This document shows positions 3,232-64,000 of a DNA stretch of 64,000 nucleotides, one piece after another. The stretch comes from Cronobacter universalis NCTC 9529 (GTDB lineage Bacteria; Pseudomonadota; Gammaproteobacteria; Enterobacterales; Enterobacteriaceae), in NCBI RefSeq assembly GCF_001277175.1, contig NZ_CP012257.1, positions 3,782,001-3,846,000 of the forward strand. The letters run 5' to 3'. Each line of letters opens with the position of its first letter. The stretch's first letter is position 1. The position numbers and the translations under genes were made by a program. The notes beneath the pieces were generated by a model, which was not told where the DNA came from, searched no databases, and saw only the letters and a program-made list of their open reading frames with translations.

Positions 3232-4527
3232 ATGAAAAAATACGCCCTGGTGGGAACCGGCGGGCGCGCCGGAATGTATATCGAGGCTATCGGCAAGACA
3301 TTTCGCGACAGCGCGCAGATGGTCGCGTTCTGCGACACCAACCAGACCCGCATGCGTTACGCTAATCGTCTGCTGGGAAACGCAGGCGCGCAACCGGTGC
3401 CCTGTTTCGTCGCCGCGCAGTTTGAAGAGATGATCCGCGATACCCGGCCCGATACGGTCATCGTCACCACGATGGATCGGACCCATGACGACTATATCGT
3501 GCGCGCGCTTTATGCGGGCTGCGATGTCATCACCGAAAAGCCGATGACCATCGACGAAGTCCGCGCGCTGCGCATTCTTAACGCCATTGAAGAGACGGGC
3601 CGCGAAGTGCGTGTGACCTTCAACTACCGCTACGCGCCGCATCACAGCAAAGTGCGCGAACTACTGATGAACGGCACCATCGGCGAGGTGTTTTCGGTCC
3701 ATTTCGAATGGCTGCTGAATACCGAACATGGCGCGGACTATTTCCGCCGCTGGCACCGGGAGAAGCGCAACAGCGGCGGCCTGCTGGTGCACAAATCGAC
3801 CCACCATTTCGACTTAATGAATTTCTGGCTCGGCAGCTACCCGGCGCGCGTCTACGCCGAAGGTGCGCTGCGTTTTTATGGCCGCGAAAATGCCGAGAAG
3901 CGCGGCGTCTCGCAGTTTTATCCGCGCGCCCACGGCTATCCGGCGGCGAAGAACGATCCGTTCGCGCTGCACATGGAGGAGAGCGCGCAGCTCAAAGAGC
4001 TCTATCTGGAGGCCGAACATGAAGACAGCTACTTTCGCGATCAGAGCGTGTTCAGCGACGGCATCACCATTGAGGATACGCTGTCGGTGCTGGTGAAATA
4101 CCAGAACCAGACGCAGCTCACCTATTCGCTCAATGCCTATCTGCCACAGGAAGGGCTCAATGTGGTGTTCAACGGCAGCCGCGGACGGCTTGAAATGAAG
4201 CTGGTGGAAAACTCTTACGTCAACGGCGGCGGGCTGCGTGAAGCCGAAGGGAGCCTCGACCGTTGCGATATCACGGTTTACCCGATGTTCGCGGCGCCCT
4301 GGAAGGCGGATTTCACGCTGGGCGAAGGAGGACACGGCGGCGGCGATAACGCGATGCTGGCGGATCTGTTTGGCGAGCCGGGCGACGACCCGCTGCAACG
4401 CGCCGCCGATCACCGCGCGGGCGCGATGTCTATCCTCACAGGCATCGCCGGGAATATCTCGATGCAGCAGCAGCGGCCGGTGAATTTTAGCGAATTTGAA
4501 CTGGTGCGAAGGCTGGCGGGGCGGTAA
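3232..4527 (+). CDS. Gfo/Idh/MocA family oxidoreductase
   Basis: This 431-residue NAD(P)-dependent oxidoreductase of unknown substrate is expected to act on a sugar or sugar-derivative. The N-terminal Rossmann fold begins KKYALVGTGGRAGMY, and the family EKP motif appears as ITEKPMTIDE near residue 104. The C-terminal alpha/beta domain is complete. I chose the ATG at 3232 because GAGAGGA (3217-3223) lies 8 nt upstream; an in-frame ATG at 3208 has no Shine-Dalgarno sequence. It stands alone between actP and the convergent yjcE, so context gives no substrate. Confidence 0.9.
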   Translation: MKKYALVGTGGRAGMYIEAIGKTFRDSAQMVAFCDTNQTRMRYANRLLGNAGAQPVPCFVAAQFEEMIRDTRPDTVIVTTMDRTHDDYIVRALYAGCDVITEKPMTIDEVRALRILNAIEETGREVRVTFNYRYAPHHSKVRELLMNGTIGEVFSVHFEWLLNTEHGADYFRRWHREKRNSGGLLVHKSTHHFDLMNFWLGSYPARVYAEGALRFYGRENAEKRGVSQFYPRAHGYPAAKNDPFALHMEESAQLKELYLEAEHEDSYFRDQSVFSDGITIEDTLSVLVKYQNQTQLTYSLNAYLPQEGLNVVFNGSRGRLEMKLVENSYVNGGGLREAEGSLDRCDITVYPMFAAPWKADFTLGEGGHGGGDNAMLADLFGEPGDDPLQRAADHRAGAMSILTGIAGNISMQQQRPVNFSEFELVRRLAGR

Positions 4528-54575: not shown

Positions 54576-56225
54576 TCAGCCGCGCCAGGCTTTATAACGG
54601 TTAATTAAGCCGTTGGTGGAGCTGTCATGGCTGTCGACCGATTTATCATCGCCCAGCTCCGGCAGGATGCGGTTAGCGAGCTGTTTGCCCAGCTCCACGC
54701 CCCACTGGTCGAAGGTAAAGATGTTCAGGATGGCGCCCTGGGTGAAGATTTTGTGCTCATAGAGCGCAATCAGCGCGCCCAGGCTGAACGGGGTGATTTC
54801 ACGCAGCAGGATGGAGTTGGTCGGGCGGTTGCCTTCAAACACTTTAAACGGCACCACGTTTTCCAGCTGTGCCGGATCTTTGCCCTGGTCGCGGAACTCT
54901 TGTTCCACCACGTCGCGGGATTTACCGAACGCCAGCGCTTCGGTCTGGGCGAAGAAGTTTGAGAGCAGTTTCGGATGATGATCAGACAGCGGGTTATGCG
55001 TAATCGCCGGCGCGATGAAATCGCACGGGACCAGTTTGGTGCCCTGGTGGATCAGCTGATAGAACGCGTGCTGGCCATTAGTGCCCGGCTCGCCCCAGAT
55101 AATCGGGCCGGTCTGGTAATCCACGGCGTTGCCGTCACGGTCAACGTATTTACCGTTGGATTCCATATTGCCCTGCTGGAAGTACGCCGCGAAGCGGTGC
55201 ATGTACTGGTCGTACGGCAGAATCGCTTCGGTTTCGGCACCAAAGAAGTTGTTGTACCAGATGCCAATCAGCGCCAGCAGCACCGGCAGGTTTTTCTCAA
55301 ACGGCGTGGTGGAGAAGTGTTTGTCCATCTCGTGCGCGCCGGAGAGCAGCTCGACAAAGTTGTCGTAGCCCACGGACAGAATGATAGAGAGACCAATCGC
55401 CGACCAGAGGGAGTAACGGCCGCCGACCCAGTCCCAGAACTCAAACATGTTCGCGGTATCGATGCCGAAATCGCCGACCGCTTTCGCGTTGGTGGAGAGC
55501 GCCGCGAAGTGCTTCGCCACATGCTTTTCGTCACCGGCGGTTTTCAGGAACCAGTCGCGCGCGCTGTGGGCGTTGGTCATGGTTTCCTGAGTGGTGAAGG
55601 TTTTGGACGCCACCAGGAACAGGGTGCTTTCCGGGTTCACCTTTTTCAGCACTTCGGCGATGTGGGTGCCATCGACGTTGGAGACAAAGTGCATGTTGAG
55701 GTGATTTTTGTACGGGCGCAGGGCTTCGGTCACCATGAACGGGCCGAGGTCAGAGCCGCCGATACCGATGTTCACCACGTCAGTGATAGGCTTGCCGGTA
55801 TAGCCTTTCCATTCGCCGGAGATAATGGCTTCGGAGAATTTTTTCATCTTCTCCAGCACGGCGTTCACTTCCGGCATCACATCTTTGCCGTCCACCAGGA
55901 TCGGCGTATTGCTGCGGTTGCGCAGCGCGACGTGCAGCACGGCGCGGTCTTCGGTGCGGTTGATCTTCTCGCCGGAGAACATGGATTTAATGGCGCCCGC
56001 CAGATCGGTCTCTTTTGCCAGATCCAGCAGTTTGCTGAGCGTTTCTTCCGTGATGCGGTTTTTAGAGTAGTCCACCAGCATCTGATCGTTGAAGGTGGCG
56101 GAGAATTTACCGAAGCGGTCAGCGTCTTTGGCGAAGAGTTCCGCGAGGGTGACATCCTTCATCGCGTCGAAGTGATTTTGTAGTGCCTGCCAGGCAGAAG
56201 TCTGCGTTGGGTTGATGTTTTTCAT
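54576..56225 (-). CDS. pgi: Glucose-6-phosphate isomerase
   Basis: Pgi interconverts glucose-6-phosphate and fructose-6-phosphate in glycolysis. The protein has 549 residues, as in E. coli. Signature motifs are [34 protein letters not shown] in the form [16 protein letters not shown] and [24 protein letters not shown], with the catalytic Glu and His in the last. It is a single-gene unit divergent from lysC, ending in a strong terminator. Confidence 0.98.
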
Positions 56226-56588
56226 AGCAATACTCTTGTGATTTGAGAATTGTGACTGCGGTCGATTGTAGCGCCAGTCGCTGAAATTGTGATGATTTTT
56301 ATCATAAGGCCGGACGCCAGCCTCCCCGGCGACAAGAGAAAAGTATAGCCGTTATAAGTTATTTTCCTGGCAGCCTGCGTAATATGAAAAATCCCCATGA
56401 CCGTATCGTTGACAATCCCCCGCCCAACCCTTTATTTATGAATAAGTACCGGCCCGACGCGCCCTGCGCACGCCTGGCCGGTCTTTTTTCTGCGGCTTTA
56501 GCCAATTGCTTACGCAACCTGAAGCTGCCTCTGACGCCCGCTTAGGGTTTTGCGCATTACGGCAATAAAGCAGCAGCACAGCGTCAGC

Positions 56589-56657
56589 GTTTTTCAGATG
56601 AGTTCGGGTATGGCAAGCGCAACCAATGCCGCCATAGCCTGAGTAAAGAAAGAGAAC
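56589..56657. repeat. Internally deleted ERIC element (69 bp)
   Basis: The left end GTTTTTCAGATGAGTTCGGG and the right end CAATGCCGCCATAGCCTGAG match the two ends of the full ERIC at 56790-56916, but the central ~58 bp with the conserved core is missing. The ends can still pair (GTTTTTC with GAGAAC-type end). Confidence 0.75.
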
Positions 56658-56659
56658 AC

Positions 56660-56786
56660 GATTTTCAAACGGTTTGGGGTTACGCGAAGGCGGCGACGCA
56701 GCGAATCCCCAGGAGCATACAAAAGTATGTGACTGGGGTGAGCGAGGAAAGCCAACACACGCGTAGCCACAAACAGGACGAAAATC
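56660..56786. repeat. Full-length ERIC element (127 bp), first of a tandem pair
   Basis: Terminal inverted repeats GATTTTC (56660-56666) and GAAAATC (56780-56786) bound exactly 127 bp. The core GCGAATCCCCAGGAGCATAC and GTATGTGACTGGGGTGAGCG is the ERIC consensus. Confidence 0.92.
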
Positions 56787-56789
56787 ATT

Positions 56790-56916
56790 GTTTTCCAAAA
56801 TAGTTCGGGGTGTGGCAAGGCGGTAAGCGAGCGAATCCCCGGGAGCATACAAAAGTATGTGACCGGGGTGAGCAAGCGCAACCAACGCCGCCACAGCCTG
56901 AAATATGAAGGAAAAC
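56790..56916. repeat. Full-length ERIC element (127 bp) abutting the lysine riboswitch
   Basis: Terminal inverted repeats GTTTTCC (56790-56796) and GGAAAAC (56910-56916) bound exactly 127 bp. It is separated from the previous ERIC by only ATT. Its last base is the first base of the riboswitch P1 helix. Confidence 0.92.
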
Positions 56917-57101
56917 CGGAAGAGGCGCGTCGGCCAGGTAACGTGTGCGAGGAACCCGTCCCACGACCACACGCGAGGGGGAACGACGCCGAGATGGCGC
57001 GCTGTCTGGTAAGGCGCGTCATCGGCTGCAGGGGCTGAATCCCCTGGGCTGTCACCCGAAACGACGGCAGTCGAACGTTTCGCAAGGTGGAGCGCTTCTG
57101 G
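56916..57101 (+). ncRNA. Lysine riboswitch (L box) of lysC
   Basis: The lysC leader closely follows the E. coli L-box. P1 is formed by CCGGAAG (56916-56922) and CTTCTGG (57095-57101) with one G-U pair. Conserved core elements are AGAGGCGCG near the start, GGGGCTGAATCCCCTGGG, GTCACCCGAAAC and GCAGTCGAACGTTTCGCAAG near the end. Lysine binding is expected to sequester the lysC ribosome site and expose RNase E sites; the 117 nt between aptamer and start form the expression platform. Confidence 0.95.
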
Positions 57102-57218
57102 GTGTATCGTAACGTAGGTTTTATCCTCCTGCGTCCGCCCCTTTACTGCGCTTTCCTTGTGCCCAGGCTGAACAGATTCCGCCATACATGATGAATGGCG
57201 CCCTGACACGAGGTTGTT

Positions 57219-58571
57219 ATGAGAGATTCTTTAGTGGTCGCTAAATTTGGCGGCACCAGCGTGGCGGATTTCGACGCCATGAACCGCAGCGCCGATGTCG
57301 TTCTGGACGACGGTCACGTCCGTCTGGTGGTGCTTTCCGCCTCCGCCGGGATCACTAATCTGCTGGTGGCGCTGGCGGAAGGTCCCGAAGCGACCGAGCG
57401 CTTTGTGAAGCTCGACGCCATTCGCAAGATCCAGTACGACATTCTGGAGCGCCTGCAAAACCCGGCGGTTATCCGCGAAGAGATTGATCGCCTGCTGGAA
57501 AATATCGCCACGCTTTCGGAAGCCGCGTCGCTGGCGACCTCTACCGCGCTCACCGACGAACTGGTTAGCCACGGCGAGCTGATGTCCACCCTGCTGTTTG
57601 TCGAGATCCTGCGCGAGCGCGGCGTGGACGCGCTGTGGTTTGACGTGCGTAAAGTGATGCGCACCAGCGACCGCTTCGGCCGCGCCGAGCCGGATGTCGC
57701 GGCGCTCGCGGAGCTCTGTACGCAGCAGCTCGCGCCGCGCCTGACGGAAGGGTTGGTGATCACCCAGGGGTTTATCGGCAGCGAAGCCAAAGGACGCACC
57801 ACCACGCTTGGCCGCGGCGGCAGCGACTATACCGCCGCCCTGCTCGCCGAGGCGCTGAAAGCGCGCCGCGTGGATATCTGGACGGACGTGCCGGGCATCT
57901 ACACCACCGATCCGCGCGTGGTGCCCGCCGCGAAACGCATTGATGAAATCGCGTTTGAAGAAGCCGCCGAAATGGCGACGTTCGGCGCCAAAGTGCTGCA
58001 CCCGGCGACGCTGCTGCCCGCCGTGCGCAGCGACATTCCGGTGTTTGTCGGCTCCAGCAAAGATCCGAAAGCGGGCGGCACGCTGGTATGCAACAAAACC
58101 ACCAACCCGCCGCTGTTCCGCGCGCTGGCGCTGCGCCGCAAGCAGACGCTGCTGACGCTCCACAGCCTGAACATGCTGCACTCGCGCGGTTTCCTCGCGG
58201 AAGTGTTCAGCATCCTGGCGCGACATAATATTTCGGTCGATCTCATTACCACCTCGGAAGTGAGCGTGGCGCTGACGCTCGACACCACCGGCTCCACCTC
58301 AACCGGCGACACGCTGCTGACCCAGGCATTGCTGACCGAGCTCTCCTCGCTCTGCCGCGTGGAAGTGGAGGAAAACCTGGCGCTGGTGGCGCTGATTGGC
58401 AATAACCTTTCTAAAGCCTGCGGCGTCGGCAAAGAGGTGTTTGGCGTGCTGGAGCCGTTTAACATCCGCATGATTTGCTACGGCGCGTCGAGCTATAACC
58501 TCTGCTTCCTGGTGCCGGGCAACGACGCGGAACAGGTCGTCCAGAAGCTGCACCAGAATCTTTTTGAATAA
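57219..58571 (+). CDS. lysC: Lysine-sensitive aspartokinase III
   Basis: LysC phosphorylates aspartate, the first step to lysine, threonine and methionine, and is feedback-inhibited by lysine. The protein has 450 residues. The kinase domain begins VAKFGGTSVADFDAMNRSADV and includes TTTLGRGGSDYTAALLAEAL. Two C-terminal ACT domains (about 310-450) contain the lysine site, including the LHSRGFLAEVFSILARHNISVDLITTSEVS segment. The ATG at 57219 follows CACGAGGTTGTT. Control is through the lysine riboswitch upstream. Confidence 0.97.
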   Translation: MRDSLVVAKFGGTSVADFDAMNRSADVVLDDGHVRLVVLSASAGITNLLVALAEGPEATERFVKLDAIRKIQYDILERLQNPAVIREEIDRLLENIATLSEAASLATSTALTDELVSHGELMSTLLFVEILRERGVDALWFDVRKVMRTSDRFGRAEPDVAALAELCTQQLAPRLTEGLVITQGFIGSEAKGRTTTLGRGGSDYTAALLAEALKARRVDIWTDVPGIYTTDPRVVPAAKRIDEIAFEEAAEMATFGAKVLHPATLLPAVRSDIPVFVGSSKDPKAGGTLVCNKTTNPPLFRALALRRKQTLLTLHSLNMLHSRGFLAEVFSILARHNISVDLITTSEVSVALTLDTTGSTSTGDTLLTQALLTELSSLCRVEVEENLALVALIGNNLSKACGVGKEVFGVLEPFNIRMICYGASSYNLCFLVPGNDAEQVVQKLHQNLFE

Positions 58572-58573
58572 GT

Positions 58574-58602
58574 AAAAAAATGGCCTGACATTGTCAGGCC
58601 AT
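58574..58602 (-). terminator. Terminator of the slipin-rtcB-nucleotidyltransferase operon
   Basis: ATGGCCTGAC (58580-58589) and GTCAGGCCAT (58593-58602) pair over 10 bp with a 3-nt loop. The minus strand continues into TTTTTTT. The stem includes the nucleotidyltransferase stop codon. It also lies right after lysC on the plus strand. Confidence 0.9.
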
Positions 58603-59379
58603 CACCGTTTCATAAAGCAGCTTATCTAACTGACTCGCCTGCGCCTTTTCGCTGTGCGGCAGCTCGGGCGGGGTTTCGCCGCGCGCCAGCTCTGCGGCGA
58701 TAAACGCATGTATCCGCGGCATCGATGCGCCATACTCAGCCTCGCCCGCCCGCTGTTTTCTCGCCAGCAGCGTGTCGATTTCTTCCCGCAGCAGCGGATC
58801 GTTCACCGTGCCCTCCAGCAGCGTGCAGAATCGCATCGGCGGCGCGCCCTTACCCGCTTCCACCCAGCGCACCGCCAGCAGCGGGCGCAGCACGTAGAAA
58901 TATTTCTTCAGCCGCACCGTCTCGCCCTGCAAATAACTGTGAAAGTTTTTGCGGGCCATCGAGTAGTAGTGCCAGCGCGCACGCTCAGCGGAGAACCAGA
59001 GCGGCACCTGGTCACGCAGCGCGCCGATGGCGGTCTCATCCTGCCGGTAGACTATCGGCGAGTCGAGCCACTCGATAAGCGTCGGGTTCGCCCGCTTGAG
59101 CAGCCCGAGCGCTTTGCGCCACTCCCAGCCGCAGACGTCGAGCGTGTCGTCGATGGGCAGTTCGATAACATCGCGCGGCGCATCGACCCGTAAATACCAC
59201 TCAGGCGGATGCACATAGAGAAAGCGCACGTCGTAGTCGCTGTCCGGCGAGGCAAAGCCCCAGCCCCGGCTCCCCGATTCGCAGGCGTAAAGCACCTTCA
59301 CGCCATACTTTGTTTCCACCTCGTTTAACACCTGCCGCACGCGCTCGCGCATGGCGGCGTCCACCCCGTTCAGTTCCAT
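58594..59379 (-). CDS. RNA-repair-associated nucleotidyltransferase (RlaP-like)
   Basis: This 261-residue protein belongs to the polymerase-beta-like nucleotidyltransferase group that co-occurs with RtcB-type ligases. The active-site motif is ACESGSRGWGFASPDSDYDVRFLYV, with the GS pair at about 36-37 and metal-binding aspartates in DSDYD at 46-50. The rest is largely helical (SMARKNFHSYLQGETVRLKKYFYVLRPLL). It is the last gene of the operon, 13 nt after rtcB, in the place where rtcA stands in E. coli. It may add or remove nucleotides at the ends of damaged RNA; this is inferred from family and context. Two ATGs are adjacent; the second (59379) has better spacing from AAGGAA. Confidence 0.88.
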   Translation of the reverse strand: MELNGVDAAMRERVRQVLNEVETKYGVKVLYACESGSRGWGFASPDSDYDVRFLYVHPPEWYLRVDAPRDVIELPIDDTLDVCGWEWRKALGLLKRANPTLIEWLDSPIVYRQDETAIGALRDQVPLWFSAERARWHYYSMARKNFHSYLQGETVRLKKYFYVLRPLLAVRWVEAGKGAPPMRFCTLLEGTVNDPLLREEIDTLLARKQRAGEAEYGASMPRIHAFIAAELARGETPPELPHSEKAQASQLDKLLYETVMA

Positions 59380-59395
59380 CATTTTTCCTTAAAAA

Positions 59396-60622
59396 TTATC
59401 CTTTCACGCACACGACCTGACGCAGCGTATGCACAATCTCCACCAGCGACGACTGCGCGGCCATCACGGCGTCGATGTCTTTATACGCCATCGGGATCTC
59501 ATCGAGCACGTCGCTGTCTTTACGGCACTCAACGTGCGCCGTGGCGCGAATTTGATCTTCCACCGTGAAGCGTTTTTTCGCCGCGGTACGGCTCATCGCG
59601 CGCCCTGCGCCGTGGCTGCATGAACAAAAGCTCTCTTCGTTTCCCAGCCCGCGCACGATAAAGCTTTTCGCGCCCATGGACCCCGGAATGATCCCCATCT
59701 GGCCTTTTTGCGCCGACACCGCCCCTTTGCGCGTCACCAGGATCTCTTCACCAAAGTGCGTCTCTTTCTGCACGTAGTTATGGTGGCAGTTCACGGCCTC
59801 CTGCTGCGTCATAAACGGCTTCGTGATAATCGCGGAAAGCGCCGCCAGCACGCGGTTCATCATCACTTCGCGGTTCTGGCGCGCGAAATCCTGGGCCCAT
59901 TCGACCGCCTCAATGTAATCGGCGTAGTGTTTGCTGCCTTCTTCAAAATAGGCGAGATCGCGGTCCGGCAGATTCGCCATATGGCGCTGCATATCTTTCT
60001 GCGCAAGCCCGATGAAATGGGTGCCGATGGCGTTACCCACGCCGCGCGACCCGCTGTGCAGCATCACCCACACGCGCTCCTGCTCATCAAGGCAGATCTC
60101 GATAAAGTGGTTACCCGTACCGAGCGTTCCCAGATGCTGATGATTATTAGTCTTCAACAGGTTGGGATATTTATCCGTCAGGCGCTTAAAGCGCGACGCA
60201 AGCGGCGCCCAGTGGTGATCCACATCCTGCGGCGTGTTCGACCACGCGCCTTTATCACGCTGGCCGCGCCCTGTGGTGCGCCCGTGCGGAACGGCCTGTT
60301 CGATGGCGCTGCGCAGCCCGCTCAGGTTATCCGGCAGATCGCGCGCCACGAGCGACGTGCGCACCGCGATCATTCCGCAGCCGATATCCACCCCCACCGC
60401 CGCCGGGATAATCGCCCCTTTGGTCGGGATCACGCTGCCGATGGTCGATCCTTTACCCAGATGCACATCCGGCATCACCGCCAGATGTTTAAAAATAAAC
60501 GGCATTTTCGCCGTTTTCAGCAGTTGCTCACGCGCTTCCGGCTCTACCGGCACGCCGTGGGTCCACATTTTTACCGGCGCGCCGTTAGCCTGCGCCAGCG
60601 TCTGATAGTGATTCTCTTGCAT
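59396..60622 (-). CDS. rtcB: RNA-splicing ligase RtcB
   Basis: RtcB joins RNA 2',3'-cyclic phosphate or 3'-phosphate ends to 5'-OH ends using GTP and Mn2+. The protein has 408 residues. Visible motifs are the PDVHLGKGSTIGSVI metal region, AVGVDIGCGMIAVRT with the metal-binding cysteine, LGTLGTGNHFIEI, INCHHNYVQKE (as VNCHHNYVQKE) and the guanylated histidine in SCSHGAGRAMSR. The catalytic set is intact. The first ATG (60628) overlaps the slipin stop as ATGA; the second (60622) has AGGGG at ideal spacing and is preferred. It stands between the slipin and nucleotidyltransferase genes. Confidence 0.96.
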   Translation of the reverse strand: MQENHYQTLAQANGAPVKMWTHGVPVEPEAREQLLKTAKMPFIFKHLAVMPDVHLGKGSTIGSVIPTKGAIIPAAVGVDIGCGMIAVRTSLVARDLPDNLSGLRSAIEQAVPHGRTTGRGQRDKGAWSNTPQDVDHHWAPLASRFKRLTDKYPNLLKTNNHQHLGTLGTGNHFIEICLDEQERVWVMLHSGSRGVGNAIGTHFIGLAQKDMQRHMANLPDRDLAYFEEGSKHYADYIEAVEWAQDFARQNREVMMNRVLAALSAIITKPFMTQQEAVNCHHNYVQKETHFGEEILVTRKGAVSAQKGQMGIIPGSMGAKSFIVRGLGNEESFCSCSHGAGRAMSRTAAKKRFTVEDQIRATAHVECRKDSDVLDEIPMAYKDIDAVMAAQSSLVEIVHTLRQVVCVKG

Positions 60623-60624
60623 TG

Positions 60625-61758
60625 TCATACCCCTTTAATCTGTACCAGCCCCTGCAGCACCTGATCCAGGCCGCCGAATACGGAGATCTTATCGATACGC
60701 TCCGCCACTTTTTCCAGGGTTTCGAGCTCTTTCAGTCGCAGCGCGACCGGGTTGTTTTCCATCACTTTCGCGGTGTTCAGCAGCGAACGGGTCGCGGCGG
60801 TCTCTTCACGACGACGAATCACGTTCGCCTGCGCGGATTTCTCCGCTTCCACCAGCCGCGACAAAATCGTTTTCATGTCGCCCGGCAGCACGATGTCTTT
60901 CACGCCGGTCGACGCCACGTCGATACCAAACGGCGCCATACGTGCGATAACCTGCGCGCTCACCACATCGTCGATAACCTGTTTATTTTCCAGCAGCTCA
61001 TCGAGCGTGCGGGTGCCGACCGCCTCGCGCAGCCCAAACTGCAATTCGCGGTATAAATGCTCCAGCGGTTTGGCAAGCTGGCTGTACGCCTGCAACACGT
61101 CCTGATAGCGCCAGTTGGCCCCCAGATTAATGCGCAGGTTCACTTTATCTTTAGTCAGGATCTCCTGACCGGACACTTCCATCGCCTGAAGGCGCGTATC
61201 CACCACTTCCGCCTCCACCAGATGGTTGATTTTCCAGTACGCGCTTAAGCCTGGCGGCAGCAGCGGCTGGGTGACGCCGTCGATTTTCAGCACGCCCGCA
61301 TGCCAGGCGGGCACGTTAACGGTCAGGATCGCGTCGCGCCCTTTCACTACGGCATCGCGGCCGCGCGGTTGCAGCACGGCGGTCATTATCTCCGTCGGTA
61401 CCTGCACGTCGCGGGTATCCATATGCACGGCGCGCAGGCTGTCGCCGTCGCGCCAAAAGAGACGCCGCGCGCCCGGCGGGATAATTTCCACCAGCACGTT
61501 GTTGCGCCACAGCGCCGCGGTTTCGTTATCGGCGGTATCGACCGCCAGGCAATATTTCTCTACCCATTCTGGCTGAAAACGGCGCAGATAGTCGGCCAGT
61601 TCCGGCGCGACGTCGCCGCTGTTCATCTCCACCAGCGTCACGTCCGGTTTGTTAAACCAAGGCAGGCGATGCTCGCCTGCTTCCAGCACCTGATAAAAGT
61701 CGCCCTGTTTTGCCAGTAAACCCAGCTGGCCCTTACGAATCGTCACTTTGTTATTCAT
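60625..61758 (-). CDS. Slipin (SPFH/band-7 domain) protein of the RNA-repair operon
   Basis: This 377-residue SPFH-domain protein starts MNNKVTIRKGQLGLLAKQGDFYQVLEAG. The SPFH core covers roughly residues 150-320 and includes VNLRINLGANWRYQDVLQAY and ARMAPFGIDVASTGVKDIVLPGDMKTIL. A C-terminal coiled-coil segment (ETAATRSLLNTAKVMENNPVALRLKELETLEKVAERI) is typical of slipins that form rings. Unlike stomatin, no clear N-terminal membrane helix is seen. Slipins recur in RtcB operons but their role there is not settled. It is the first gene of the operon, with AAGGGA six nt before the ATG, and follows a ~310-nt leader. Confidence 0.9.
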   Translation of the reverse strand: MNNKVTIRKGQLGLLAKQGDFYQVLEAGEHRLPWFNKPDVTLVEMNSGDVAPELADYLRRFQPEWVEKYCLAVDTADNETAALWRNNVLVEIIPPGARRLFWRDGDSLRAVHMDTRDVQVPTEIMTAVLQPRGRDAVVKGRDAILTVNVPAWHAGVLKIDGVTQPLLPPGLSAYWKINHLVEAEVVDTRLQAMEVSGQEILTKDKVNLRINLGANWRYQDVLQAYSQLAKPLEHLYRELQFGLREAVGTRTLDELLENKQVIDDVVSAQVIARMAPFGIDVASTGVKDIVLPGDMKTILSRLVEAEKSAQANVIRRREETAATRSLLNTAKVMENNPVALRLKELETLEKVAERIDKISVFGGLDQVLQGLVQIKGV

Positions 61759-62071
61759 TTTTTTCCCTTACTGTTGTGGCTGACGCGAATAACGGCGCGA
61801 AGCGGGAGGGGGAAGCCACCTCTGTTCCGGTCTTTTCTGCCTGCCGCCCGGCGCCGTTACCGGCGTCAGTGCGTGGCGGTCGCTAACGACTCAACCGCCG
61901 GGGTACTGCTTCAAAGGTTTCTCTGGAAGGAGAAAGAAAATTCAGGAGTCGAACCTGATAAACCGACAGTTTTCCGCGTCATTGCACTGGCGGAACGCCC
62001 CCTGGATAACGTGTTACCGTTCCCGGTGCGCCGGCGGGGTCATTAGCCCCTGCATACCCAGCGTGCTGACA
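61759..62071 (-). ncRNA. Structured 5' leader of the RNA-repair operon with a tRNA T-arm mimic
   Basis: The expected transcript from the sigma-54 promoter starts near 62071 and has about 310 untranslated nt. On the minus strand TCAGG-TTCGACT-CCTGA (61958-61942) is a perfect 5-bp stem with a seven-base tRNA T-loop sequence. GGAAAA (61975-61970) can pair with TTTTCT (61940-61935) to stack an acceptor-like helix on it with an 11-nt linker. Competing helices are GGAACG (62023-62018) with CGTTCC (61997-61992), and TTCCGC (61995-61990) with GCGGAA (61977-61972). A stable CGCCG-GTAA-CGGCG hairpin lies at 61865-61852. A full tRNA cloverleaf is not present. Confidence 0.6.
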
Positions 62072-62081
62072 ACGTAGTAAT

Positions 62082-62097
62082 TGCCAGAAGCGTGCCA
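62082..62097 (-). promoter_or_regulatory. Sigma-54 promoter of the slipin-rtcB operon
   Basis: On the minus strand TGGCACGCTTCTGGCA matches the -24/-12 consensus TGGCACRNNNNTTGCW at 14 of 16 positions or better, with both GG and GC invariant dinucleotides and correct spacing. It faces the operon, and its dedicated activator rtcR is divergent. Confidence 0.9.
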
Positions 62098-62124
62098 GTT
62101 TCAGTTAAGGTGAAAATAAATTTT

Positions 62125-62159
62125 TAAGTTATTGATTATTAATAGTTAAATTTTTGATG
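62125..62159. promoter_or_regulatory. IHF-like sites between rtcR and the sigma-54 promoter
   Basis: TAAGTTATTGATT (62125-62137) matches the IHF consensus complement YAANNNNTTGATW exactly, and TAAATTTTTGATG (62147-62159) matches with one mismatch. IHF bending between enhancer-bound RtcR and the promoter would fit sigma-54 activation. RtcR binding sites themselves could not be assigned. Confidence 0.6.
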
Positions 62160-62233
62160 CGATGCGCGACGGCTATAACAGAAAGGGATATGATTTATCT
62201 TTCAATATCGTTATTTATCTTTAAGGATAAAAC

Positions 62234-63826
62234 ATGCAAAAGCGTCGCGTGGTGATTGGCATGCTGGGCACCGTACTGGACCGGCGCGGTAAGCGCGCCA
62301 ACCGCTGGAATAAATGGCGCCCCTCCATCGCGCTGTGTCAGCAGCCCGGTTTGCCTGTCGACCGCTTTGAATTGCTGCATCAGGCGCGCGACGCGTCGCT
62401 CGCAGAGCGGGTCATGGAAGATATCGCCGCCGTCTCGCCGCATACCGAAGTGCGCCCGCACACCGTGGTGATGGACGATCCGTGGGATTTCGAGGAGGTG
62501 TACGCGGCGCTGCTGGATTTCGCCACGCGCTATCCCTTTGATACCGACAATGAAGAGTATCTGGTGCATATCACCACCGGCACGCACGTAGCGCAGATCT
62601 GCTGGTTCCTGCTGACCGAAGCGCGGTATCTCCCGGCGGCGCTGTTACAGACCAGCCCCGATCGCCGGGGCGATGAGGAAGATCAGAAAGCCACCGGCAC
62701 GGCGTCGGTCATCGATCTCGATTTAAGCCGCTATGCGACGCTGACCAGCCGCTTCCAGCGCGAGCAGCAGCAGTCGGTGTCGTTTCTCAAATCCGGCATC
62801 GACACCCGTAACGCCACGTTTAACCGCCTGATCGACCAGATCGAGCGCGTGGCGCTGCGATCCACCGCGCCGATTCTGCTGACGGGGCCGACCGGCGCCG
62901 GGAAATCATTTCTCGCAAAGCGCATTTTCCAGCTGCGCCAGGCGCGGCATCTGGTGCAGGGAAAGCTGGTCTCCGTGAACTGCGCGACGCTTCGCGGCGA
63001 TAACGCGATGTCGACGCTTTTTGGTCATGTGAAGGGCGCGTTTACCGGCGCGCAGCAGGCGCGGCATGGGCTTTTGCGCGAGGCCGACGGCGGCGTGCTG
63101 TTTCTGGATGAAATCGCCGAGCTGGGGCTCGATGAGCAGGCGATGTTGCTGAAAGCTATTGAGGAAAAGACCTTTTTCCCGTTCGGCTCGGATAAAGAAG
63201 TGCGGAGCGATTTCCAGCTTATCGCCGGTACGCACCGCGACATGGCGCGATGGGTCGCCGAAGGTCGCTTTCGTGAAGATCTCTACGCGCGCATTAATAT
63301 GTGGGCCTTCGCGCTGCCGGGCCTCGCCGAGCGCCGCGAGGATATCGCGCCGAACGTGGAGTATGAGCTACAGCGCTTCTCGGCGCAGCAGCAGACGCAG
63401 ATCCGCTTTGATAAAACCGCGCGCGAGCGCTATCTCGCTTTTGCCTGTTCGCCACAGGCGCGCTGGCCGGGCAACTTTCGCGAACTGGGCAGCTCGGTGG
63501 CGCGCATGGCGACGCTTGCCGAACAGGGACGTATTACCGACGCCTTAGTCGAGGAAGAGATCGCCCGCCTTACCGCGAGCTGGCAGCCGCTCGCAGACCC
63601 TGCCGTCGCGCTGCCCGTCGACACCGCGACGCTCGATCTCTTCGACCGCGACCAGCTGACGGCGGTTGTTGCCGTGTGCCGGCGCAGCGCCTCGCTCTCC
63701 GAAGCCGGACGCACGCTGTTTGCCGTTTCACGCCAGAAGAAAGCCAACCCGAACGATGCCGACCGGCTGCGTAAATATCTGGCGCGCTTTGGGCTGAGCT
63801 GGGAGCAGGTTAAAGCCCCTGAATGA
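62234..63826 (+). CDS. rtcR: Sigma-54-dependent activator RtcR with CARF-type sensor domain
   Basis: RtcR activates the RNA-repair operon when it senses RNA damage products. The protein has 530 residues. The N-terminal domain (about 1-180, MQKRRVVIGMLGTVLDRRGK...) is the CARF-like RtcR domain. The AAA+ domain has Walker A GPTGAGKS (218-225), the sigma-54 contact loop GAFTGA (268-273), Walker B VLFLDEIAEL and a GTHRDM/NMWAFALPGL region. A helix-turn-helix follows (SLSEAGRTLFAVSRQKKANPNDADRLRKYL). The ATG at 62234 has AAGGA six nt upstream. It is divergent from the operon it should control. Confidence 0.96.
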   Translation: MQKRRVVIGMLGTVLDRRGKRANRWNKWRPSIALCQQPGLPVDRFELLHQARDASLAERVMEDIAAVSPHTEVRPHTVVMDDPWDFEEVYAALLDFATRYPFDTDNEEYLVHITTGTHVAQICWFLLTEARYLPAALLQTSPDRRGDEEDQKATGTASVIDLDLSRYATLTSRFQREQQQSVSFLKSGIDTRNATFNRLIDQIERVALRSTAPILLTGPTGAGKSFLAKRIFQLRQARHLVQGKLVSVNCATLRGDNAMSTLFGHVKGAFTGAQQARHGLLREADGGVLFLDEIAELGLDEQAMLLKAIEEKTFFPFGSDKEVRSDFQLIAGTHRDMARWVAEGRFREDLYARINMWAFALPGLAERREDIAPNVEYELQRFSAQQQTQIRFDKTARERYLAFACSPQARWPGNFRELGSSVARMATLAEQGRITDALVEEEIARLTASWQPLADPAVALPVDTATLDLFDRDQLTAVVAVCRRSASLSEAGRTLFAVSRQKKANPNDADRLRKYLARFGLSWEQVKAPE

Positions 63827-63834
63827 GGGCTTTT
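63812..63834 (+). terminator. Terminator overlapping the end of rtcR
   Basis: AAAGCCC (63812-63818) and GGGCTTT (63827-63833) pair over 7 bp around an 8-nt loop that contains the rtcR stop codon, followed by T. Confidence 0.65.
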
Positions 63835-63884
63835 CATCATAATTTGTTTGAATAACTTTCCTTCGCACGATAAACAATATCAAT

Positions 63885-63911
63885 GGCCGGGCTCGATCCC
63901 GGCCTTTTTTA
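63885..63911 (+). terminator. Strong intrinsic terminator downstream of rtcR
   Basis: GGCCGGG (63885-63891) and CCCGGCC (63898-63904) pair over 7 bp with a 6-nt loop and run into TTTTTT (63905-63910). Confidence 0.88.
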
Positions 63912-63988
63912 TAATTACACAACACAACATTCTCCCCGGCGATGCCGCGTTACGACGACGGTTCGCCACGGGGCGCAAGGAAAACACG

Positions 63989-64000
63989 ATGCTCGCGACA
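63989..64000 (+). CDS. Possible start of a further gene, cut by the window end
   Basis: ATG at 63989 is preceded by AAGGAAAA at a spacing typical for a ribosome site. Only four codons (Met-Leu-Ala-Thr) are visible, so identity cannot be judged. Confidence 0.25.

Follow-up and report, generated by a model that had tools for sequence, protein, structure and literature searches.

The 5′ untranslated leader of the slipin operon of Cronobacter universalis carries a conserved, structured RNA that ends in a tRNA-like minihelix, and the occurrence of this RNA tracks the slipin gene, not RtcB or RtcR operons as such. We consider it plausible, though still tentative, that a noncoding RNA of two modules, encoded by the leader and mimicking tRNA, serves as a tRNA-shaped partner of a slipin/RNA-repair complex. 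The locus lies in a 64,000-nucleotide stretch of DNA (the window), in which the slipin gene (SPFH/Band 7; 60625..61758, ATG at 61758), the gene for the RNA ligase RtcB (59396..60628; PF01139, 445.5 bits) and the gene for the nucleotidyltransferase RlaP (58594..59382; PF10127, 319.9 bits) are encoded on the minus strand, and the gene for the σ54 activator RtcR is divergently encoded on the plus strand (62234..63826; NF038308, 847.2 bits). A σ54 (−24/−12) promoter, TGGCACGCTTCTGGCA, was recognized by its sequence at 62097-62082 on the minus strand, and the slipin leader extends from this site and the predicted +1 at 62071, a position derived only from its spacing to the σ54 site, to the slipin ATG at 61758. 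A matching σ54 site was present upstream of slipin at all 52 Enterobacterales loci (L001-L049, L061, L066 and L070) among the best 80 of the 115 slipin loci. ARAGORN found no tRNA genes in the window, the region 55000-64000 gave no tRNA (RF00005), YrlA or tmRNA match in Rfam (RF00005 and YrlA at E ≤ 5), and no Rfam match overlapped the leader RNA of the window. Elsewhere in the window, on the plus strand, a lysine riboswitch (RF00168, 97.3 bits) occupied 56912-57105 upstream of lysC at 57219, and two structured repeats of about 124 nt stood in tandem at 56659-56912; these scored 42.3 and 39.9 bits as Vibrio AS5 RNA, under the AS5 gathering score of 96 bits.

The original prediction placed a T-arm in this leader, and we found it at 61958-61942 on the minus strand, with a 5-bp stem (TCAGG/CCTGA) and a TTCGACT loop, by sequence, motif counts and covariation. 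The chance of such a match was assessed by counting a motif with a stem of at least 4 bp and a TTCRANY loop in the 600 nt upstream of slipin. Slipin loci were taken from a search of one genome per species, the best 80 of 115 loci were kept, and the 80 upstream regions comprised the window and 79 loci (L067, with only 45 nt of upstream sequence, was omitted). The motif occurred in 68 of these 80 regions, compared with 1/80 for the reverse complement, 4/80 for slipin coding sequence, 2/79 for sequence further upstream and 2/80 for shuffled sequence; these locus counts do not equal independent events, because several loci are close kin and three of them (L062, L065 and L076) belong to a single Gilliamella strain. 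Across both strands of the 64-kb window, the same motif occurred three times. Nine of the 12 misses (L005, L006, L010, L015, L017, L018, L020, L021 and L070) retained the T-loop above a shorter stem, and the remaining three (L040, L061 and L073) lacked it; L048 lost its T-arm under a stricter motif, yet counted as a match in the test with at least 4 bp and TTCRANY. The T-loop motif was kept in 50 of 53 sequences consisting of the window and the 52 Enterobacterales loci among the best 80 of 115.

An independent set gave the same picture. When 398 Pseudomonadota genomes were searched with a profile, slipin was found at E ≤ 1e-60 in 23, or 22 once the genome of the window was left out, and T-arms of at least 4 bp lay within 700 nt upstream of slipin at 21 of these 22 loci, with two or more in 20; the reverse complement and slipin coding controls each gave 0/22. 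The single miss, L175, had only 136 nt of upstream sequence, and eight genomes of this set belong to other classes of the phylum. A chance origin was ruled out by the controls of both sets, confirming that the T-arm in the window is real.

In Enterobacterales, the T-arm forms the 3′ end of a conserved RNA of about 140 nt that begins at the predicted +1; the T-arm element that had been proposed for the RNA-repair leader is real, but makes up no more than the 3′ half of this larger RNA. Module 1 (61978..62070, minus strand), supported by covariation and by covariance-model matches, is a branched 5′ domain that has GTC/GAC and CTGG/CCAG as its closing stems and contains hairpin A (62053-62034) and the long hairpin B/C (62033-61991), both on the minus strand. 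Module 2 (61935..61975, minus strand), supported by a permutation test and covariation, is a tRNA minihelix in which an acceptor-like helix, a linker and the T-arm follow one another. The acceptor-like helix has 6 bp including one G-U pair (GGAAAA at 61975-61970 with TTTTCT at 61940-61935), and the 3′ tail of the minihelix in the window is TTTCTCC, not NCCA. By eye, the linker contains a GG (61964-61963, minus strand), which is likewise visible in most leaders with a long linker; in tRNAs, GG is where the D-loop docks on the T-loop. Immediately 3′ of the minihelix, a single-sequence fold placed a small hairpin, TTTCTC-CTTCCA-GAGAAA (61918..61935, minus strand), that has one base in common with the acceptor-like helix; hairpins resembling it were noticed by eye in relatives, and its loop, also by eye, could pair with the ribosome-binding site. 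A long hairpin 5′ of the slipin ribosome-binding site (61780..61869, minus strand) was predicted from a single-sequence fold only. Three leaders (L040, L048 and L061) have the 5′ domain without the T-arm and represent natural deletions for comparison.

We evaluated the 42-pair structure in an alignment of 20 sequences. Paired cells amounted to 88.0%, compared with 73.0% in shuffled alignments and 35.8-45.5% when the structure was slid, a control that favors the structure because the structure was partly derived from the same sequences. Two-sided changes numbered 158 versus 59.7 (sd 7.2) in shuffles, and the covariation score was 0.494 versus 0.235; the number of further pair types did not rise above the shuffles (61 versus 58.8, with 126 of 500 shuffles equally high). 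In Module 1, the closing stems (helices 1 and 2) were 83.3 and 73.8% paired, hairpins A and B/C (helices 3 and 4) 94.3 and 93.4%, and two-sided changes occurred at 23 of the 32 pairs of these four helices. The acceptor-like helix (helix 5) was 64.6% paired with two-sided changes at four of five pairs, and the T-stem (helix 6) 97.0% paired with two-sided changes at three of five pairs, bearing out the expectation of compensatory changes in the 5-bp stem among relatives. At the level of sequence comparison, both modules are preserved by compensatory change.

The acceptor-like helix was also examined without an alignment by permuting the partner strands among leaders, which were assigned to groups by eye. 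In the 23 leaders with a long linker, the mean score was 11.91 compared with 9.78 for permuted partners, and none of 2000 permutations scored as high; together with the covariation, this agrees with the earlier proposal of a tRNA minihelix lacking D and anticodon arms. The helix was unsupported in the 15 short-linker leaders of the Klebsiella/Citrobacter type, in which 211 of 2000 permutations reached the observed value and the T-stem has 3-4 bp, so we rejected the idea that the acceptor helix is universal to all leaders. For the five Gilliamella loci the comparison carried no information (2000 of 2000 permutations scored as high), since these loci hardly differ in their 3′ strands and the tested stretch does not include the true acceptor strand.

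A recurrent hairpin of the form GGY-stem...stem-RUNCC preceded the first T-arm by no more than 260 nt in 63 of 100 regions (25/50 from Enterobacterales and 38/50 from others), compared with 4.3 expected from shuffles, 10/100 in the reverse complement and 4/100 in slipin coding sequence, a count that is not independent of the motif because the motif was drawn from some of the counted sequences. Seven of 107 regions had been excluded from this count for want of a T-arm or sequence.

We searched 64 sources with a covariance model of the RNA, R1, built from 20 training sequences, one of which is the window, so the match of R1 to the window arises by construction. Outside the training set, R1 matched all 35 searched Enterobacterales slipin leaders at E of 8.6e-8 or better, including the three leaders that lack the T-arm and some near copies of training sequences, and it matched none of seven non-slipin RtcR/rtcBA loci at E ≤ 1 (L093, L096, L098, L125, L128, L132 and L139). 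The covariance-model search that had been suggested for slipin leaders came out in favor of the proposal, 35/35 against 0/7. R1 also matched over its full length in Betaproteobacteria, Burkholderia among them (L052 and L055, 1.5e-9; L051, 2.6e-6; L147, 3.6e-6; L060, 8.8e-5; L148, 0.0022). Weaker R1 matches, part of which fall on tRNA genes (e.g., at L074), were excluded from the counts. Within the family, R1 matched 15 of 119 genomes at E ≤ 0.001, and 13 of these were exactly the genomes with a slipin-first RtcR locus, with one copy each. Two weak matches (G005:C2:146885-147028 and G082:C125:50917-51004; 30.5 and 26.5 bits) were seen where no RtcR was found. The window has the features by which we define the slipin-leader tRNA-mimic RNA, namely a 5′ branched domain and a minihelix that covary and lie between a σ54 promoter and slipin.

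We found RtcR in 22 of the family's 159 genomes, and a T-arm followed the promoter at 12 of the 13 slipin-first RtcR loci of the family. The exception (G028) comes from a genome of poor quality whose genes are broken, and R1 still finds the RNA there at 120.3 bits. Conversely, no T-arm followed the promoter at any of 12 RtcR loci with a first gene other than slipin (4 rtcB-first, 3 rsr-first and 5 without slipin, rtcB or rsr in the stretch), nine of which came from the family RtcR search and three from a search of the class; at one of them, L125, an AT-rich chance match to the T-arm precedes the promoter. The class search with NF038308 retrieved mostly other σ54 activators, with 5 of 229 genomes over the cut-off, and its slipin-first locus L097 has three T-arms. 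No T-arm was found in the rtc region of E. coli K-12. In addition, at 16 of the 52 Enterobacterales slipin loci among the best 80 of 115, the leader was kept although tblastn detected no rtcB within the fetched stretch (L004, L007-L009, L011-L016, L018, L019, L022-L024 and L066). Because the leader is kept without rtcB and the T-arm is missing from RtcR loci that do not begin with slipin, we conclude that the RNA tracks slipin. The RNA is not a general marker of RtcB/RtcR operons, as the 12 non-slipin-first RtcR loci and the K-12 rtc region rule this out; the tie to the RNA-repair operon that had been drawn originally is correct as to position in the leader, but the association is with slipin. 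At 15 of the 16 loci without detectable rtcB, rlaP directly follows slipin. The phage collection contained no slipin; one IMG/VR contig (L178), catalogued as viral, has at its edge a slipin gene with 75% identity, which may be host flank.

Beyond the minihelix of the window, we surveyed 55 loci, almost all of them from outside Enterobacterales (L061 belongs to the order, and L175 is cut off), and found 97 tRNA-like elements, 60 of them with a D-arm; two or more elements were present at 42 of the 55 loci. The anticodon loops of the 60 D-arm elements had 7 nt in 34 cases, 6 nt in 11, 5 nt in nine, 8 nt in two, and 4 and 9 nt in one each, with two unresolved. Only 22 of the 34 seven-nucleotide loops had U33 and a purine at position 37; 13 different anticodons occurred among them, and anticodons differed even inside one genus (G509 versus G704 and G792). 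In the Burkholderia loci, GAAA or AAA closes the stem, and by eye the minihelix layout of the window recurs in the first element. Some distant elements score as good tRNAs (at most 68.1 bits, at L162), and L074 has additional tRNA genes nearby; because these scores are good and 22 of 34 seven-nucleotide loops look normal, some distant elements could be charged. The plasmid collection yielded eight loci (four Burkholderia, Citrobacter, E. coli, Photobacterium and Subdoligranulum), at seven of which T-arms with stems of 3 bp or more lay within 600 nt upstream, and at the eighth, L149, they lay about 743 and 818 nt upstream. In the Subdoligranulum plasmid record (L154), two T-arms and a GGY...RUNCC hairpin were observed at about 3640-3700, upstream of a Firmicute slipin relative with 33% identity. 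As judged from these sequences, tRNA-like elements, singly or in greater number, occupy the same position at related slipin genes, and their anticodon loops are often resized or replaced. The minihelix form that had been predicted accordingly holds for the window, but the relatives have fuller tRNA-like elements, mostly two together.

Several known RNAs resemble the leader RNA in part. With tRNA (RF00005) it has in common a T-arm and an acceptor-like helix, and many distant relatives retain a D-arm and a cloverleaf; the window form differs in lacking D and anticodon arms, and the anticodons and loop lengths of the relatives are not conserved. Tandem tRNA-like elements or tRNA arrays can also attract the YrlA model, whose matches reached E ≤ 0.001 in 155 of 198 genomes and passed the cut-off in only six; sub-gathering YrlA matches in L060, L156 and L164 coincide with tandem tRNA-like elements, and because low YrlA scores fall on such elements or arrays, we did not take them as Y RNAs. 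YrlA consists of two modules, one of which is tRNA-like; binding to Ro and the presence of tRNA modifications are further hallmarks of bacterial Y RNAs. In MALAT1/mascRNA-type signals and the tRNA-like domain of tmRNA, a tRNA-like element likewise stands within a longer RNA, possibly for RNase P; their context differs from that of the window RNA, and the window region has no tmRNA match. Like the leader RNA, YrlA (RF02553, from rsr-yrlBA-rtcBA operons) is, according to passages of PMC7790460, a noncoding RNA that mimics tRNA and belongs to an RtcB operon under RtcR control. The window RNA has the YrlA-like trait of a tRNA-like module with a T-loop, but in a different arm order: the T-arm precedes the D-arm in the YrlA Rfam model, whereas the minihelix has a linear order. 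It also differs in standing at the 5′ end, before slipin, in a genome without a Ro gene. The absence of Ro, already noted originally, was upheld by a search for Ro60/Rsr (TROVE, PF05731), which found none in this genome at E ≤ 0.001; with no YrlA match at E ≤ 5 in 55000-64000 and no Ro protein, membership in the YrlA family was rejected.

On the protein side, the slipin model matches the major vault protein (MVP) among SPFH proteins (best E 4.7e-12), which recalls the vault particle of MVP and vault RNA, a comparison in which RNA similarity was looked for through Rfam only. Stomatin is the better match to the slipin model (6.2e-16), and the N-terminal part of slipin alone gave no match at E ≤ 0.001. 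By eye in an alignment, the N-terminal half of slipin (residues 1-185) resembles repeats of one short beta unit before the SPFH domain; MVP is characterized by N-terminal repeats ahead of its SPFH shoulder. A P. aeruginosa study mentions an SPFH gene in the rtc locus (PMC13086221), and in Anabaena, according to parts of PMC10272220, TrcR represses the slipin gene alr0740, rtcB and a tRNA array, with alr0740 up 42-fold and rtcB up 77-fold in a trcR mutant. Among the matches listed, no title or beginning of an abstract presented such a slipin-leader RNA; an earlier mention in Burroughs and Aravind 2016 is possible.

In the reading that we tentatively favor, firing of the operon by RtcR would produce the leader RNA, which would function as RNA, either released or still on the mRNA. 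The minihelix may dock tRNA-binding proteins without offering an anticodon loop to be cut, and its partners would be slipin or the repair enzymes, by analogy with the way YrlA serves the Ro/RtcB operon. The position in an mRNA leader fits cis-regulation equally well. It is possible, if somewhat unlikely, that slipin translation or mRNA stability is under the control of the tRNA-like fold, for example through recruitment of RNase P, RNase E, RtcB or a tRNA-modifying enzyme, or through cutting under stress. The location between promoter and slipin speaks for such control, as does the fact that an acceptor and T-arm form the minimal RNase P substrate, which is cut 5′ of the acceptor strand and has a 3′ NCCA, and in the window a long hairpin adjoins the ribosome-binding site in the predicted fold; however, two or more tandem elements at 42 of 55 loci seem more than a control site needs.

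It is improbable that the RNA acts as a decoy that titrates tRNA-cleaving enzymes and so spares tRNAs during repair, along the lines suggested for YrlA. Passages of Hughes et al. 2020 (PMC7790460) state that tRNA fragments activate RtcR and suggest YrlA as a competitive inhibitor of a nuclease, and resized or replaced anticodon loops, frequent among the relatives, would suit this role. The window form, however, could compete only through acceptor and T-arm contacts because it has no anticodon arm, and where loops exist, their anticodons vary within one genus. We regard it as very unlikely that the leader simply retains ordinary tRNA genes, or fragments of them, as relics or a reserve: the good scores of some distant elements and the tRNA genes near L074 point that way, but compensatory change is seen in Enterobacterales leaders, where no tRNA was found, and anticodon loops of 4-6 and 8-9 nt do not suit ordinary tRNAs. 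An intrinsic terminator or attenuator, with the T-arm as a hairpin before a T-rich tail, is scarcely credible; although the region contains a single terminator-like site, the T-arm of the window, chance alone would give 0.7 such sites, the tail of relatives is not T-rich (e.g., ATTCGC), and a conserved T-loop would be needless.

Slipin and its leader were present in 1624 of 5426 complete E. coli genomes, and because the locus occurs in so many of them, the RNA can be studied in a tractable species. In five aligned Escherichia leaders, GGGTTCGATTCCC was unchanged and differences lay at the outer stem. At L152, no rtcR is listed beside slipin in an annotation table known to be incomplete, and control in trans is possible there. 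Going beyond the tRNA-shaped partner proposed above, we consider speculative, and on balance doubtful, the idea that a slipin (SPFH) assembly and its own tRNA-mimic RNA, made from one transcript, form an undescribed ribonucleoprotein in Enterobacterales, in Betaproteobacteria and further classes of Pseudomonadota, and probably in one cyanobacterium and one Firmicute. If true, such an SPFH-RNA particle would parallel Ro-Y RNA, or even the vault with its RNA; it would handle or sense broken tRNA, and the minihelix of the window would be its most reduced form. The tRNA-mimicking RNAs of RNA-repair operons known so far occur with Ro proteins, as YrlA does. For the slipin-leader RNA and its relatives, which include tRNA-shaped RNAs without an anticodon loop, the partner gene in many bacteria encodes an SPFH protein, whether or not RtcB is present. 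A candidate RNA partner is thereby at hand for the slipin of rtc loci, and the role of tRNA mimics in RNA repair becomes testable.
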